From a virus, in the IMG/VR virus record IMGVR_UViG_3300025319_000030, positions 1-49,641 of that record: a DNA stretch of 49,641 nt. The stretch is one strand, 5' to 3'. The notes beneath the pieces were generated by a model. It made no database searches and was not told where the DNA came from. It saw only the letters and a program-made list of their open reading frames with translations. Positions 8,307-15,017 of the stretch are shown piece after piece. The translations under genes were made by a program, and so were the position numbers. How positions within the stretch are numbered: the first letter of the stretch is position 1; each line of letters opens with the position of its first letter.

Positions 8307-8666
8307 ATGTCTCCAAAAAAAATGATTTACAGTGGAATTTTAAAAATTAATGAATATGAATGCTTAAAGTGCGGTGATTCATATTTAGTTGAAGATGTGG
8401 AACCAGACTTCAAAAAAGATGAAAATGTTTTTGTCCGATATTATGTAACTGATAAAGAAATTAGTGAAGAAGAAGCAAAAAAGGCTTTGATTTTAAGAAA
8501 TATTGGAGGCAACATGGATGAGTTAAATTTTATTTTAGATGCATATTCAGAATTTACAATAACTGAGATTCAAGAAAGATTGGTAGTAGGAGGGCATAAT
8601 TTGTTAAATGAACTACAAAAATATGATGGTAAATTCCTAACTCTTGTAATCGAATCGGTATATTAG
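8307..8666 (+). CDS. Hypothetical protein, 119 aa
   Basis: Short acidic protein with a single CxxC pair (ECLKCGDSY) near the N-terminus. Family not recognised. Its stop is 5 bp upstream of the first attC-like site, so it may be the leftmost cassette gene, but no GTTAGCGG-type cassette start is found upstream of it. It could equally be a phage gene beside which the cassettes inserted. Confidence 0.65.
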   Translation: MSPKKMIYSGILKINEYECLKCGDSYLVEDVEPDFKKDENVFVRYYVTDKEISEEEAKKALILRNIGGNMDELNFILDAYSEFTITEIQERLVVGGHNLLNELQKYDGKFLTLVIESVY

Positions 8667-8671
8667 GGTTG

Positions 8672-8804
8672 CCGCTAACGCCTACGGCTTGGCGAAGTGG
8701 GGGAATTATACCCACAAAAGCCGATTAGAATTACTAATGTTCAATAACAGATAAAAGATGATAGAAAGCAGTCAGCCCCCATTTTGCCAAACCGATGTTA
8801 GCGG
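8672..8804 (+). repeat. attC-like site 1
   Basis: Left arm 8672-8703, right arm 8776-8804, 72-nt variable centre. CCGCTAAC pairs with GTTAGCGG at the ends. An asymmetric bulge follows (extra bases in the left arm), then CGG-TTGGC-AA-TG-GGG pairs with CCCCCATTTTGCCAAACCG including G.T pairs. This matches integron attC architecture (paired R boxes, unpaired spacer, paired stem). Box sequences deviate from the textbook GTTRRRY. Confidence 0.7.
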
Positions 8805-9819
8805 AAGTGCCTTTACGCATCTTGGCTTATTTGAAGGTATTGGAGGCTTTTCATTAGCTGCAAGATGGATGGGATGGAAAACATTAGCTTGGTGCGAATG
8901 GAACGAATTTGGGCAAAGAATTTTAAAACACCACTTCCCAAATGCAGAAGGTTTTGGAGATATAACGAAAACAGATTTTAAAAAATATGCAAACAAGATT
9001 GATATACTCACAGGAGGATTTCCTTGCCAACCCTACTCACTTGCAGGAAAGCGAAAAGGTAAAGAAGATGAACGCCATTTATGGCCAGAAATGCTTAGAG
9101 CAATTAGAGAAATTCACCCGCCCTACGTTGTGGGTGAAAATGTTTTCGGCCTTATTAATTGGAACGGGGGAATGGTATTCAACGAAGTGCAAGCTGACTT
9201 GGAAGCTGAGGGGTACGAAGTATGGCCGTATGTACTTCCAGCTTGTGCCATCAACGCCCCCCACAGACGGGATAGAGTTTGGTTTGTGGCCTACTCCCGA
9301 CACAATTCAAAGAGGAAGACCGGAAGTAGCACAAATGATGAAGGAAGCAAACTTGCCACTATATACACGAAGGGACAAAGGGGGGAATGCCAGGCAATTT
9401 TCAATAGTGGATTTTGCCATTTACAAGGGAATGATACCAACGCCAACTGCGATGGATGCAACAAGTGCAACGGCAACAATGAAAAGCACACAAGTAAAGG
9501 AGGGTTCAATGCACTCAATGACTTTAACGAGGATACTATGCACACCAACTGCACAAGAAAGCAGGGGGAATACATCAGACAAACGAGGAAAGGGAAATTT
9601 AACGGACCAGATAGCAGAAATGGATTTGACAACTTCAAAAACTTCCCAACTCAATCCCCGATTTGTGGCGGAGATGATGGGCTTCCCACCGAATTGGACG
9701 GAATTACCTTTTCAAAGTGGAGAACAGAAAGTATAAAAGCATTTGGAAACGCTATCGTTCCACAAGTCGCTTACGAAATTTTCAAATCGTTGGAGGCTGT
9801 CGATTGGCATTTCCGCTAA
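8758..9819 (+). CDS. DNA (cytosine-5) methyltransferase, cassette gene
   Basis: About 353 aa. It transfers methyl groups from SAM to cytosine C5 in DNA. Visible motifs: I (LGLFEGIGGFSLAA), IV with the catalytic Cys (GGFPCQPYS), VI (GENV), VIII (HRRDRVWFVA) and X (FGNAIVPQVAYEIF). The region between VIII and X, the target-recognition part, is Asn/Cys/Gly-rich and overlaps a second open frame. The only ATG before motif I lies in the centre of attC-like site 1, and the stop (CGC TAA) lies in the left box of the next site, so both ends of the gene are made of recombination-site sequence. It may protect phage DNA from restriction. Confidence 0.88.
   Translation: MIESSQPPFCQTDVSGSAFTHLGLFEGIGGFSLAARWMGWKTLAWCEWNEFGQRILKHHFPNAEGFGDITKTDFKKYANKIDILTGGFPCQPYSLAGKRKGKEDERHLWPEMLRAIREIHPPYVVGENVFGLINWNGGMVFNEVQADLEAEGYEVWPYVLPACAINAPHRRDRVWFVAYSRHNSKRKTGSSTNDEGSKLATIYTKGQRGECQAIFNSGFCHLQGNDTNANCDGCNKCNGNNEKHTSKGGFNALNDFNEDTMHTNCTRKQGEYIRQTRKGKFNGPDSRNGFDNFKNFPTQSPICGGDDGLPTELDGITFSKWRTESIKAFGNAIVPQVAYEIFKSLEAVDWHFR
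8987..9736 (+). CDS. Overlapping ORF inside the methyltransferase gene
   Basis: A 249-codon frame wholly inside the methyltransferase gene. It contains protein-like segments that I recall from phage and Bacteroidota proteins encoded alongside Dcm-type genes: WYSTKCKLTWKLRGTKYGR, YFQLVPSTP, LWPTPDT, IPTPTAMDA, and LNPRFVAEMMGFPPNWTELP. The true start may be the ATG at 9071. If real, the target-recognition region is dual-coding. Function unknown. The alternative is a chance open frame, or a relic from which one frame was exapted; recurring motifs make chance less likely. Confidence 0.5.
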   Translation: MQTRLIYSQEDFLANPTHLQESEKVKKMNAIYGQKCLEQLEKFTRPTLWVKMFSALLIGTGEWYSTKCKLTWKLRGTKYGRMYFQLVPSTPPTDGIEFGLWPTPDTIQRGRPEVAQMMKEANLPLYTRRDKGGNARQFSIVDFAIYKGMIPTPTAMDATSATATMKSTQVKEGSMHSMTLTRILCTPTAQESRGNTSDKRGKGNLTDQIAEMDLTTSKTSQLNPRFVAEMMGFPPNWTELPFQSGEQKV

Positions 9820-9845
9820 CGTCCGACAGACATACTCAGTGCGAA
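9811..9845 (+). repeat. Truncated attC-like site (left box only)
   Basis: TTCCGCTAAC at 9811-9820 is the exact reverse complement of GTTAGCGGAA at 8797-8806, the start of the methyltransferase cassette. No right arm follows before the next gene, so the site looks broken by deletion. Confidence 0.6.
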
Positions 9846-9866
9846 ATATTTAGACAAAATATAATT

Positions 9867-10130
9867 ATGAAAAAGAAAGAAATTGAGAAGATTGTGAAAA
9901 AACAAACGATGATACACTTACCTCATATCCACCCATATACCGTGATGGATTTTGAGAAAGGTTTAGTCGAAGCCTTACACCAAGCATTGAGTATGTCTGG
10001 TGTTGCGCCTTCGTTGCCTTCTACTGAAGAAGATTGGCCTTACCCAAAATGTAATCAGTGCGGTCAGGAAATGGATGAGGATGAAGGTAGGTGGGGCATT
10101 TGTAATGATTGCATTCCTGATGATGTGTGA
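9867..10130 (+). CDS. Small zinc-ribbon protein, 87 aa, cassette gene
   Basis: Starts MKKKEIEKIVKKQT and ends with a two-CxxC zinc ribbon (CNQCG ... CNDC). The middle is a helical segment (VMDFEKGLVEALHQAL). Start chosen at 9867 after an A/T-rich leader; the longer in-frame extension reads back into the methyltransferase gene. It sits between a broken and an intact attC-like site. Function unknown; zinc ribbons of this size often bind nucleic acid or protein. Confidence 0.65.
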   Translation: MKKKEIEKIVKKQTMIHLPHIHPYTVMDFEKGLVEALHQALSMSGVAPSLPSTEEDWPYPKCNQCGQEMDEDEGRWGICNDCIPDDV

Positions 10131-10138
10131 AGCAATGA

Positions 10139-10269
10139 GGCGCAACGTTTACGCTATGAGTAGTGGCGGATTTGGAATTACTCACTTTGAAATTAGCAAT
10201 AATGACAGAAGAAATCACAAAGCATCAAATTAGCATTAAACCGCCATTAATTATAGCGAGTGTTAGCGG
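10139..10269 (+). repeat. attC-like site 2
   Basis: Left arm 10139-10169, right arm 10241-10269. The AAC/GTT end boxes are followed by a bulge, then CGCTAT and TGGCGG pair with CCGCCA and ATAGCG, with three G.T pairs in the stem. The left end GGCGCAAC has no complementary GTTGCGCC upstream, consistent with loss of the 5' end of the preceding cassette. Confidence 0.65.
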
Positions 10270-10270
10270 T

Positions 10271-10585
10271 ATGTTGTTTTTGATTAACTCAATTCGAGAT
10301 ACTGACCAATACATTTCTGATATATACTTGAATGGTGGGTGCTATCAATTTCATTTGATGCTAAAAAAGTTTGCTCCTAATTGTGAGGCACGAATTACTA
10401 AAGAGAAAAATCACATAGTTACCTACTTTAAAGGGAAACACTTTGATATAACTGGTATTGTTGAAGGGAAATTTGAAACACTTAATCATCAAGAAATTGA
10501 TATGGCTTCAAAATGGTCATTCGCTAAAAACAAGGCATTACAAATTTGTGAATGTCCTGTTTGCGAAGAACCGATTGTCGTTTAA
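10271..10585 (+). CDS. Hypothetical cassette protein, 104 aa
   Basis: The ATG directly follows the right end of attC-like site 2 (GTTAGCGGT-ATG), a typical position for a cassette gene. Starts MLFLINSIRDTDQYISDIYL and ends with a single CxxC (CECPVCEEP). Several longer in-frame starts lie inside the site and are less likely. Probably soluble. Family not recognised. Confidence 0.7.
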   Translation: MLFLINSIRDTDQYISDIYLNGGCYQFHLMLKKFAPNCEARITKEKNHIVTYFKGKHFDITGIVEGKFETLNHQEIDMASKWSFAKNKALQICECPVCEEPIVV

Positions 10586-10591
10586 CAATTA

Positions 10592-10687
10592 CCGCTAACG
10601 GTTTCGGGCTTGGCGAAGTGCCGCTACTCGAAACTTAAATTTTAGCACTAACTGTCCTGCGGCATTTTGCCAAACCCGTGTTATGGG
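10592..10687 (+). repeat. attC-like site 3
   Basis: Left arm 10592-10624 (CCGCTAAC, bulge, CGGGCTTGGCGAAGTGCCGC). Right arm 10659-10687 (GCGGCATTTTGCCAAACCCG, then GTTATGGG). The stem pairs over about 18 bp with G.T wobbles and a left-side bulge of about four bases. At 96 bp it is the most compact of the four sites. Confidence 0.75.
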
Positions 10688-10735
10688 ATAGTTTTAAAAA
10701 CCTTTTAGGGTGGGGCATTTAAAAGATAAATAAAA

Positions 10736-11050
10736 ATGGTTACTAAAAAATTTGGAACAGACTTTAATTCAGATGGTGGTGCATTGACACTAAATACATC
10801 AGAAGTATCAGAAAATGGATATACTAAATATGGGGTTATTCAGCAAAAAACTCATCCTGACGGGTGGGCTATTAAAGGAGAAGTTCACGAAGGTTATTAT
10901 GAATGGGTAAACGACTTTGAAGCAACACATCCTACTTATGGAAAAGTGTGGGGTAATTTTGAAAGTGAAGTTTTTGCTGATAGTGAAGAAGGGTATAACC
11001 ATTTTTACGAAAATCATAAACCAGAAGCTTGGGATTATGGCGACATTTAG
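10736..11050 (+). CDS. Hypothetical cassette protein, 104 aa
   Basis: Acidic, Tyr/Trp-rich protein starting MVTKKFGTDFNSDGGALTL and ending NHKPEAWDYGDI, with no Cys-rich or membrane segment. It fills the unit between sites 3 and 4. This cassette has an extended terminal inverted repeat: the sequence after GTTATGGG (tagttttaaaaacctttt) pairs with the sequence before the left box of site 4. Family not identified. Confidence 0.7.
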   Translation: MVTKKFGTDFNSDGGALTLNTSEVSENGYTKYGVIQQKTHPDGWAIKGEVHEGYYEWVNDFEATHPTYGKVWGNFESEVFADSEEGYNHFYENHKPEAWDYGDI

Positions 11051-11080
11051 GGTGCGGTGGGGAAAGGTTTTTAAAATTTC

Positions 11081-11213
11081 CCATAACGTTTTGCAGATTG
11101 CCGAAGGTGGCGAAATCGAAGCACTAAACTTGATATAAAAACGAATGTTAAACCGAAGCACAACAGTTTATATTAGCACTAAACCGCCACTTTTGGCAAT
11201 GTGCTGTTATGTG
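11081..11213 (+). repeat. attC-like site 4
   Basis: Left arm 11081-11112 (CCATAAC, bulge, GCA, ATTGCCGAAGGTGGCG). Right arm 11185-11213 (CCGCCACTTTTGGCAAT, TGC, then GTTATGTG). The stem has two G.T pairs and a left-side bulge, like sites 1 and 3, though the stem sequence differs. Confidence 0.75.
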
Positions 11214-11241
11214 CCGTTTTTCTTCACAAATCTTAATTAAA

Positions 11242-11589
11242 ATGATAACAGAAAACGAATACCTAAAAGCAAAAGAAGTTGTTGAAAAATACGAAAAGCA
11301 ACAATTAGAAATGAAAGAATTACTTTCAAAAGAAACTTTATTGATTTCCATAGGTGGATGCCTACACGAAAACGGTAGAATTAGTTTAATACCATATCCA
11401 AAAGACCGTAGATTGAAAATCAGAAAACAAGGCGAAATGTTTTATACAATTACAGACCTGAAAAATTATTATAGTATTAAGAAAACAACCAAGACTGGTG
11501 AAAAAGAATGGGCAATAAGTCCAAGAGGCAAAAGGCACGAATGGGATGTTCTTGAAGCAGAAATTTCTATGGATTATGTCGTGTCCTAA
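11242..11589 (+). CDS. Hypothetical cassette protein, 115 aa
   Basis: Starts MITENEYLKAKEVVEKYEKQ with a helical N-terminus, followed by a basic beta-rich part (YPKDRRLKIRKQGE). Start at 11242 because the upstream in-frame ATG lies in the right box of attC-like site 4. Soluble; family unknown. Last gene of the cassette run. Confidence 0.7.
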   Translation: MITENEYLKAKEVVEKYEKQQLEMKELLSKETLLISIGGCLHENGRISLIPYPKDRRLKIRKQGEMFYTITDLKNYYSIKKTTKTGEKEWAISPRGKRHEWDVLEAEISMDYVVS

Positions 11590-11592
11590 AAT

Positions 11593-11625
11593 GGCACATA
11601 ACTCATTTATACACGCAATAACTCC
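11593..11625 (+). repeat. Truncated attC-like site at the right end of the run
   Basis: GGCACATAAC at 11593-11602 is the exact reverse complement of GTTATGTGCC at 11206-11215, the start of this cassette. No right arm is seen before the next gene at 11649. Confidence 0.55.
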
Positions 11626-11648
11626 TATCAAATCGCAATTTAAACTCA

Positions 11649-11909
11649 ATGAATCAAGATAATTTTGATATAATTTCAAAGTGGTTAATAAAAGGTTTCC
11701 CGCAATATTGCTTTGGATCGGACAATGAATTATACCGATTTCCTTACAAAACTGGCAAAAATTACTATTCGATACGAAAGGTAAAAAAGCAGGTCCACAA
11801 CCGATGGCTTATCCACGGTAAATTTTGGAGCGAACGTCAGTTAAAAGGTAAACTTTACCTGAATCCTGATCCAGAGATTATTGTAAAAGGCGAAGAAATG
11901 CCTTTTTAG
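11649..11909 (+). CDS. Hypothetical protein, 86 aa
   Basis: Tyr/Trp/Lys-rich, starting MNQDNFDIISKWLIKGFPQ, with a compact basic middle (GKNYYSIRKVKKQVHNRWLIHGK). No family recognised. First gene after the broken last attC-like site; probably outside the cassette run. Confidence 0.65.
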   Translation: MNQDNFDIISKWLIKGFPQYCFGSDNELYRFPYKTGKNYYSIRKVKKQVHNRWLIHGKFWSERQLKGKLYLNPDPEIIVKGEEMPF

Positions 11910-13146: not shown

Positions 13147-13710
13147 ATGACTAGAATAAAAATAATAAATCAGATAATCAAAGATCGGGGATATACAAGT
13201 TATCTGGAAATAGGTATTGGAGATGGAAGTAATTTTAACGGAATTGAATGTGAAGTAAAAAGAGGATGTGATCCAGAATGGAAGGAAAGTGAAGTAATAA
13301 TGTCGGCTACTTCTGATAATTTTTTTATGACCTTGAATGAATTCAATCCAGATTTTAAGTTCGACCTAATCTTTATTGACGGCCTCCACCACTCACCGCA
13401 AGTAGAAAAAGATATTATAAATAGTTGGAAGTGCCTGAATAAAGGCGGAATGATTCTGATTCATGATGTCAGGCCTAAAAATATCGAAGAACAGGTAGTT
13501 CCTATGGGTAATTATCCAACATGGACCGGAGACGTTTGGAGGGCTTGGTATGGGTTCAAAAAATGCCATCCAAAAATTAAGGCATATTATATTGAGGAGG
13601 AAAATGGATTGGGATCTATTGAAAAGTCAAGGCATAAAGTTGATTTTGGTTTTGTAGATTACAAAACCAGTTGGGAAGAATACAACGAATCACGGGGATG
13701 GGAAATATGA
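13147..13710 (+). CDS. SAM-dependent methyltransferase (class I, Methyltransf_24-like)
   Basis: 187 aa. The SAM-binding loop is SYLEIGIGDGSNF, followed by FDLIFIDGLHHSPQVEKDI, LNKGGMILIHDV and a WTGDVWRAW segment. This pattern is common in small methyltransferases of sugar gene clusters. It overlaps the glycosyltransferase gene downstream by an ATGA, so it probably modifies a sugar or glycan made by that cluster. Substrate is not readable from sequence. Confidence 0.8.
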   Translation: MTRIKIINQIIKDRGYTSYLEIGIGDGSNFNGIECEVKRGCDPEWKESEVIMSATSDNFFMTLNEFNPDFKFDLIFIDGLHHSPQVEKDIINSWKCLNKGGMILIHDVRPKNIEEQVVPMGNYPTWTGDVWRAWYGFKKCHPKIKAYYIEEENGLGSIEKSRHKVDFGFVDYKTSWEEYNESRGWEI

Positions 13711-15017
13711 AGCTATCAATTCTAGTACCTTCTGTCGCTGAAAGGCGAAAAACTTTTCTTCCAATTTCACTTGACATGCTTTACGGCCAGTTGGAATCCT
13801 TACCTGAAGATGTTCAAAAAGAGGTTGAAATCATTTATCTGATTGATAATAAAACCATAATGTTAGGTGACAAGCGGAACCTGATGATTGACATGGCTAA
13901 AGGTGAATATGTTGTCTTTGTAGATTGTGATGACAGGATCGAGCCTGATTATATCTCAACAATATATGAGGCTACTAAGTCGGGATGTGATGCGATAGTT
14001 TTTCAGGCTTCTGTTTCCATAAATGGAAATGATCCAAAAATATGCTATTATTCAAAAGACAACCGAACGGATTTTAATACTCCTGATGAATACTACCGGA
14101 TCCCAAATCATATTTGCTGTATAAAAAAAGAGGTTTCAAAGAAAGTTTCATTTCCATCCTTAAAAAGGGGCGAAGATGCCGGATATTCAAAGCTTCTTTG
14201 GCTTTATATTATCACTGAGCACAAAATAAACAGAGTCCTATACCATTACGATTTCAATGAAATGACAACGGTAGCACAGGAAGATATTCCAGGAATAAGA
14301 TTTAAAAAAGCTAGTTTATCACCTCCTTTGGTGGATATAATATTTGTATCAAATGCCACAAAGACGGGCATGGAAATGACTCAAAAAGCAATAGATACAG
14401 CTATATCAGGAGCTAATTCACTCCGTGTTAACTGCATTGTCATGGAGTCAACTGAAAAAGTATTTTACAAAAATGCTACCACTTACCGATTGCATGAAGA
14501 TTTCAATTACAACCGATATTTGAATTACGGTGCGGGTACTGGATCTTCGCCCTGGATCATGTTTTGTAACAATGATTTAGTTTTTCAAAATGGATGGATA
14601 CATGCTTTGATTGCTGCTGATTATCCGGTTGTTAGCCCGATAAGCGAAAAGGATTTCAGGCAAAAAGACTGTATTGAAAATGAAAAAGGATTTCAATGCG
14701 GACGGCATTTATCCGGATGGGCATTCATGATGAAAAGAGAACTTTGGGAGAAAATAGGCCACTTGGATGAAGATTTTGATTTCTGGTTCGCCGACAATTC
14801 TTTGATTGGACAATTGAAAAAACTGGATATTGAACCTATGCTGGTTCCTATGTCAAAAGTTGATCATATAGGAAGTAAGACTTTTGTACAAAGGACACAA
14901 AACGAAAGGAATAATTTAATGTGGTCAAAACTTGAATTATTCAATCAAAAATATAACGAAACATTATTCCACGACCACCCAAACTACCTAAAATGGAAAC
15001 AATCGCAATCTGTATAA
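13707..15017 (+). CDS. Family 2 glycosyltransferase, two GT-A-like halves
   Basis: About 436 aa. The N-terminal half has a GT-2 fold start (KLSILVPSVAERR) and a DxD-like VFVDCDDRIEPDY. The second half opens with VDIIFVSNATKTG and carries SPWIMFCNNDLVFQNGW and an acceptor-side segment GWAFMMKRELWEKIGHLDEDF. This suggests two GT-A domains in tandem. ATG 13707 overlaps the previous stop. Likely adds sugars to virion proteins, host surface glycans or modified bases; target unknown. Confidence 0.8.
   Translation: MKLSILVPSVAERRKTFLPISLDMLYGQLESLPEDVQKEVEIIYLIDNKTIMLGDKRNLMIDMAKGEYVVFVDCDDRIEPDYISTIYEATKSGCDAIVFQASVSINGNDPKICYYSKDNRTDFNTPDEYYRIPNHICCIKKEVSKKVSFPSLKRGEDAGYSKLLWLYIITEHKINRVLYHYDFNEMTTVAQEDIPGIRFKKASLSPPLVDIIFVSNATKTGMEMTQKAIDTAISGANSLRVNCIVMESTEKVFYKNATTYRLHEDFNYNRYLNYGAGTGSSPWIMFCNNDLVFQNGWIHALIAADYPVVSPISEKDFRQKDCIENEKGFQCGRHLSGWAFMMKRELWEKIGHLDEDFDFWFADNSLIGQLKKLDIEPMLVPMSKVDHIGSKTFVQRTQNERNNLMWSKLELFNQKYNETLFHDHPNYLKWKQSQSV

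Follow-up and report, generated by a model that had tools for sequence, protein, structure and literature searches.

The viral record IMGVR_UViG_3300025319_000030 of IMG/VR is a linear DNA of 49,641 bases, here called the window at its full length. It carries a row of small genes that are separated by attC-like sites and tile without gaps as five cassettes (8680-9820, 9821-10146, 10147-10599, 10600-11087 and 11088-11602). The row ends at an attI-like site. The genes for a portal, a head morphogenesis protein, a maturation protease, an HK97-type capsid, a tape measure and a large terminase show that the window belongs to a tailed phage, as a first-pass annotation, made from the letters alone, had proposed. 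Adjacent to the array a DUF4494 protein is encoded, a family that we take to be one of Bacteroidota. The whole window contains no match to TIGR02249, the model of the integron integrase IntI, and codes for no integrase of the type that is linked to such arrays elsewhere (see below). The features are listed here; S1 to S5 are the sites, ORF stands for open reading frame, PWM for position weight matrix, and "boxes" gives the agreement of the two end boxes of a cassette at seven positions beyond GTT/AAC.

8669-8679, plus strand: left flank box TTGCCGCTAAC, joined to cassette 1; a typical cassette end in related arrays; its AAC pairs with the GTT of S1
8680-9820, plus strand: cassette 1, S1 core (AAC 8677-8679 to GTT 8797) and C5 DNA methyltransferase ORF 8758-9819; ends in CCGCTAAC; boxes 7/7
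9821-10146, plus strand: cassette 2, S2 core (AAC 9818 to GTT 10002, long loop), 15/15 stem pairs; ends in GGCGCAAC; boxes 6/7
10147-10599, plus strand: cassette 3, S3 core (AAC 10144 to GTT 10262) and YunG-like ORF ending at 10585; boxes 7/7
10600-11087, plus strand: cassette 4, S4 core (AAC 10597 to GTT 10680) and ORF 10736-11050; ends in CCCATAAC; boxes 6/7; 63.9 bits with covariance model R1 (training row)
11088-11602, plus strand: cassette 5, S5 core (AAC 11085 to GTT 11206) and ORF 11209-11589; ends in GGCACATAAC; boxes 7/7; 53.9 bits with R1 (training row)
11600-11622, plus strand: attI-like site AACTCATTTATACACGCAATAAC at the array end, no integrase after it; PWM score 19.0; the motif ends other phage arrays

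The methyltransferase of cassette 1 matches PF00145 (4e-46). The ORF of cassette 2 (9867-10130) starts within the S2 loop and reads through the right arm, and that of cassette 3, which matches PF24591 (8e-16), has its start inside the S3 core. No family match was obtained for the ORFs of cassettes 4 and 5, the latter having an alternative start at ATG 11242. The S4 core with the beginning of the cassette 4 unit is also found in another contig, L020.

The five attC-like sites all lie on the plus strand and extend, from AAC to GTT, over 8677-8797, 9818-10002, 10144-10262, 10597-10680 and 11085-11206. A strict scan of both strands of the entire window (AACG, a 15-base arm beginning 7-11 bases on, at least 14 of 15 pairs, GTT within 2-5 bases) detected no site outside 8677-11206. 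When the region 8600-11700 was shuffled 1000 times by a first-order Markov model, 995 shuffles had no site, five had one and none had two. An earlier scoring with free end gaps, which did not separate real sites from shuffles, was replaced. The four full inverted repeats of the first-pass annotation are all present, and they fold, as strong hairpins mostly between genes. Its two half sites are of a different nature. The one at 9811 belongs to a fifth full site, S2, and forms its left arm; the right arm (9984-10009) is hidden inside ORF 9867-10130. The arms 9827-9842 and 9984-9999 are 16 nt long and 94% complementary. The one at 11593 is the 3' end box of cassette 5, GGCACATAAC, which agrees in 7/7 positions with GTTATGTGCC at 11206 and is followed by the attI-like AACTCATTTATACACGCAATAAC.

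The covariance model R1 was built from 54 related sites, S4 and S5 among them. In the window it recovers three of five sites, with E values from 1e-11 to 2e-4. Since it does not detect sites with a loop of about 190 nt (L036, L057) or some of those in the window, the pairing scanner was used alongside. In the R1 alignment 18 of 23 pairs are changed on both sides, which agrees with folding, the rows having been picked for pairing. An Rfam scan of the region yielded no family above threshold, only a sub-threshold match to MicC.

If an outer box is where the crossover occurs, both boxes of a cassette should match, while the two boxes of one site belong to neighbouring cassettes and need not. In the window 7, 6, 7, 6 and 7 of seven positions agree within the cassettes, compared with 6, 0, 1, 3 and 4 within the sites. 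The rule also applies to 59 neighbouring pairs of related loci, with means of 5.69 for the cassette and 3.36 for the site (shuffled pairings 3.17, at most 3.68), and to 188 pairs at phage integrase loci among the matches listed, with means of 4.99 and 3.07. Such matching ends are, as far as sequences can tell, the mark of site-specific cassette exchange.

The crossover point can be read from cassettes that are common to different contigs. The methyltransferase gene of cassette 1 is 96% identical at the DNA level in the viral contig L024; the identity stops at ...TTTCCGCTAACG, where a different site follows. Among 39 stretches common to contigs, ends near a box fall at AAC in 14 (5') and 12 (3') cases, at GTT in one and none; the others lie elsewhere. 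A 1057-base unit extending from AAC to AAC is 99.9% identical between two genomes, and a 469-base cassette (96%) is common to L018, a 42-kb phage contig without integrase, and L244, a 180-kb contig with one. These breakpoints place the crossover beside AAC; read on the other strand, this is G^TT, the canonical position. They also imply that the phage genes are antisense relative to the canonical attC polarity. An alternative unit consisting of the core and the upstream gene, with crossover at the right GTT, was dropped, as the ends of shared cassettes fall at AAC.

In 121 of 127 phage cassettes among the matches listed the gene points away from the attC core of its cassette, and in about half of them the start codon lies within the core. 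The window cassettes fit this phage polarity. In chromosomal arrays linked to an integrase, the polarity is canonical for 80 of 83 genes.

The attI-like site has a PWM score of 19.0, and the scores of the chromosomal training set span 9.1-22.7. Elsewhere in the window two more matches score above 15; both are on the minus strand and not part of an array. In chromosomes, about two thirds of the loci have a motif close to AACTCGTTTATATGCGC on the left side of the integrase stop, at a distance of mostly 90-130 bases. At the loci of phage integrases that were read, among the matches listed, the attI-like sequence precedes the integrase start by some 40 bases. The putative attI site of these loci is adjacent to the integrase, as in a classical integron. 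Viral contigs scanned with the attI motif alone, which contains no attC letters, yielded 30 stretches; a site lies to the left in about 20 of them and to the right in one. The boxes of the last cassette match in at least 5/7 positions at 14 of 31 places tested, the window and L014 included.

A pattern made from the arms of S1 and S4 retrieved 25 viral contigs and 16 genome stretches, 15 of which are labelled Bacteroidota and one Ignavibacteria. Many of the latter stretches contain long tandem arrays; Flavihumibacter profundi, Flavobacterium fontis and metagenome-assembled genomes of Ferruginibacter and Hydrotalea are represented. The repeats thus bound exchangeable genes in tandem in Bacteroidota genomes, a point that the first-pass annotation had proposed to check. 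It had also proposed to look for a nearby IntI; an integrase indeed adjoins the arrays, but it is not an IntI. None of 14 array-bearing genomes has an IntI above the TIGR02249 cut-off; in most of them a tyrosine recombinase of 300-440 residues adjoins an array. The additional domain of IntI is missing from it, being skipped in matches to the IntI model, which stay below the TIGR02249 cut-off, and to the structure 2a3v. The suspicion of a divergent or undescribed Bacteroidota type holds.

This linked integrase occurs in 97 of 395 sampled Bacteroidota genomes. When 60 loci were picked by the integrase protein alone, 114 sites were found in one quadrant (sites on the plus strand, to the left of an integrase on the minus strand), compared with 5, 5 and 5 in the others. 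At least one site is present at 40 of 48 integrase loci with more than 2 kb on the array side. Control regions, mostly of the same genomes, contained 8 sites in 360 kb, and the 305 kb around 20 true IntIs contained no model site. The sites are, hence, tightly linked to one integrase family. True IntIs (full-length, above the TIGR02249 cut-off) are present in 105 of the 395 genomes, which exceeds what published counts of complete integrons suggest (L180-L210).

Viral contigs were queried with the integrase profile A2; the following counts refer to the matches listed and are lower bounds. The recombinases mostly have 265-320 residues, and the best are about 37-40% identical. They are found in contigs of about 5 to 349 kb. 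Beside them lie at least 261 sites in one quadrant versus 23, 12 and 13 elsewhere; the model alone sees at least 185 sites near phage integrases, all on the plus strand. A short relative of the integrase, accompanied by sites and an attI-like motif, is present in dozens of viral contigs. A terminase ATPase match (PF03237) was obtained in 9 of 32 large viral contigs tested, 8 times above cut-off, and PF17289 revealed no terminase in the large viral contigs. Eleven of 112 phage cassette proteins are DNA methyltransferases; few others are recognisable.

Relatives of the phage integrase are also present in cultured North Sea phages, the Polaribacter phages called Freya, the description of which mentions integrases and not integrons (PMC8776804). 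Freya_1 reads ...ATTGTTTACAAC|ACCCCTATAACAACAATAAG... immediately before the integrase. Freya_4 has flanks identical to these and 842 extra bases exactly after AAC, and this block again ends in AAC. Freya_6 and Freya_10 have 1374 and 4100 more bases at the same integrase-side point, with the older block kept. Freya_8 has 3198 bases and resembles Freya_10 minus the first block. There are no target duplications at the Freya junctions. By this genome comparison Freya_1, 4, 6 and 10 display products of insertion at attI beside the integrase, in natural isolates. An empty site of the window phage was not found; its capsid relatives (L001-L003) do not share the gene order of 8.2-17 kb. As a side observation, in some cassettes (window 9867-10130; Freya L291/L299) the reading frame lies partly or wholly in the attC loop and continues across the right arm, and an entire ORF is located between the attC arms in Freya_4.

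In a tree of 66 sequences (short search, support by the Shimodaira-Hasegawa-like approximate likelihood ratio test only, XerA not included), IntI forms one clade (100), and so do the phage integrases, all but one (99). Moderate support (88) is found for a group made up of the chromosomal integrases and IntI, and XerC/D are separated from the phage, chromosomal and IntI sequences (100). All linked integrases fall outside the IntI clade. The AlphaFold model of a phage integrase (mean predicted local distance difference test, pLDDT, 89) has as its best match in the PDB the integron integrase 2a3v (E 1e-14), with XerA just behind. In the chromosomal integrases (L045-L050, L052) the N terminus is extended by a stretch that matches no Pfam family and contains a conserved W...CW motif; a HARP-like motif considered for this extension was dropped, given the missing Pfam match and the low confidence of the structure model in this part. 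The family, comprising chromosomal members with N-terminal extension and phage members of about 270 residues, is related to IntI and lacks the additional domain.

The array as first observed is confirmed. Its interpretation as integron-type cassettes without integrase in a phage is supported by five cassettes with matching ends and no TIGR02249 match. It had been likened to a cluster of attC sites lacking integron integrases (CALIN). This is right in so far as the usual criterion, at least two attC within 4 kb and no IntI, applies: our scanner and the model find five sites in 2.5 kb. The array ends, however, at an attI-like site and is therefore more than a loose CALIN; absence of attI is not part of the usual definition, and it is the attI-like motif that marks the difference. 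Very probably, a tailed phage here carries an array of integron cassettes of a type specific to Bacteroidota, with an attI-like site and without an integrase. The recombination would be carried out by the linked integrase. This tyrosine integrase may act in trans, supplied by a chromosomal integron of the same type in the host or by a co-infecting phage or prophage; it would insert circular cassettes at attI and excise them, probably via folded single-strand attC, as in classical integrons. A phage cassette would bring its own translation start, often in the attC loop, and would here be read with phage transcription. Because the recognisable cargo consists mostly of DNA methyltransferases, the phage probably gains a set of anti-restriction genes that can be changed, the methyltransferases presumably serving the escape from restriction.

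Several points weigh against this view. The window phage codes for no integrase, and activity in this phage is unproven. Of the five window sites, R1 fails to detect two, S1 and S2, and once the filters are turned off S4 alone has a clear score. Because pairing was the criterion by which the covariation set was chosen, its statistics are in part circular. The results on end boxes, breakpoints and Freya are independent of that set, although the same scanner was used for them, except for Freya, where none was used. Of the 48 integrase loci where the array side is long enough, 8 show no site. Finally, the viral status of the large contigs depends on IMG/VR and the terminase match in 9 of 32.

What else could have assembled such a row? 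Ordinary attC cassettes might be moved by a true IntI, of the host or of class 1, as in a classical CALIN, with the Bacteroidota integrase as a bystander. True IntIs are, after all, common in the sampled Bacteroidota (105/395), and the Polaribacter phage P12002L, in which our model detects sites, has an attC that was recombined by IntI1 (PMC9892861). Yet 0 of 14 array-bearing genomes have an IntI above cut-off, no model site surrounds 20 true IntIs, the sites cluster beside the non-IntI integrase by 114 to 15, and the Freya insertions adjoin Freya's own non-IntI integrase. We consider this explanation improbable. Even less credit is due to the idea that these units, matched at their ends, are small elements of a transposon-like or homology-driven kind, not integron cassettes. 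Each unit does have inverted ends, of up to 25 nt in cassette 4, and conserved hairpins could promote homologous exchange; the units, however, tile head to tail in one orientation with single shared AAC junctions, and in Freya they are added at one point beside the integrase without target duplications. That the sites are mostly intergenic and form strong hairpins would suit terminators or similar ordinary hairpins, or chance. This is already refuted by the cassette-end statistics; the shuffles, the shared cassettes with exact ends, the lack of an Rfam family above threshold and the many ORFs that begin inside a hairpin loop point the same way.

The present array, an integron array as we see it, has obvious relatives. 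With the phage CALINs of Qi et al. (2023, PMC9892861), in particular that of P12002L, it shares attC-like sites bounding small genes including DNA methyltransferases, a tailed phage, a Bacteroidota host and the lack of an integrase. In its available text that survey, which found 17 CALINs in NCBI phage genomes, reports for the present type neither an attI nor a linked integrase, and neither an end-box rule nor an antisense polarity. R1 matches two sites in P12002L, which was outside the training set (E 0.001 and 0.006); the available text of PMC9892861 reports one attC recombined by IntI1, and its coordinates were not matched to the R1 sites.

With classical integrons (class 1, Vibrio superintegron, Treponema) the system shares tandem cassettes bounded by attC hairpins with R and L boxes, R-box crossover by AAC/GTT at G^TT, an attI-like site beside the integrase and insertion on the integrase side. 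The chromosomal integrase is read toward attI, as in Treponema (PMC3607928). It differs in that an array-linked IntI with the additional domain is absent, the linked integrase lacking this domain and standing outside the IntI clade, and in that phage cassettes carry their gene in the opposite sense, often with the start in the attC loop. Xer-type recombinases (XerA, XerH, XerC/D) resemble the phage integrase in fold and size, and the NCBIfam XerA model gives it the best score, below or at cut-off. The present integrases are, however, apart from XerC/D in the tree mentioned above, and their genomic partners are attI and attC arrays.

In the literature searched, which comprised few subscription papers and no preprints, no description of the integrase-attI-attC system was found; phage CALINs are already published. 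For complete integrons, IntegronFinder 2.0 names Salinibacter among the Bacteroidetes, together with Chlorobi and Ignavibacteriae (PMC9024848). As surveys require an IntI with the additional domain, the present system would be missed or logged as CALINs.

We lean towards a wider reading: an integron network that spans the phylum Bacteroidota and its phages, including terminase-bearing contigs of more than 100 kb, with integrases that branch next to IntI and never had the additional domain. Complete phage versions would pass anti-restriction cassettes to each other and exchange them with integrase-less phages like that of the window. If so, the additional domain would be a later addition in IntI that is not needed for integron recombination. 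Should the linked integrase recombine the sites, about a quarter of the sampled Bacteroidota genomes and many phages hold an uncounted gene-capture platform, and phages run their own cassette economy for restriction escape. The requirement for the additional domain would then become testable, with the Freya phages as a cultured system.

Some minor observations may be added. A third, integron-integrase-like recombinase (G014:C33, L051; G013:C1:886586, L065) reaches about 170-210 bits with the IntI or A2 models, with no array in the region read. In the window, a glycosyltransferase (13671-15017, phrog_8858) follows the array in the same variable region. To the left of the first site, ORF 8307-8666 ends in TTGCCGCTAAC, a typical cassette end, with no matching GTT box or core upstream; it is probably the remnant of an older cassette.

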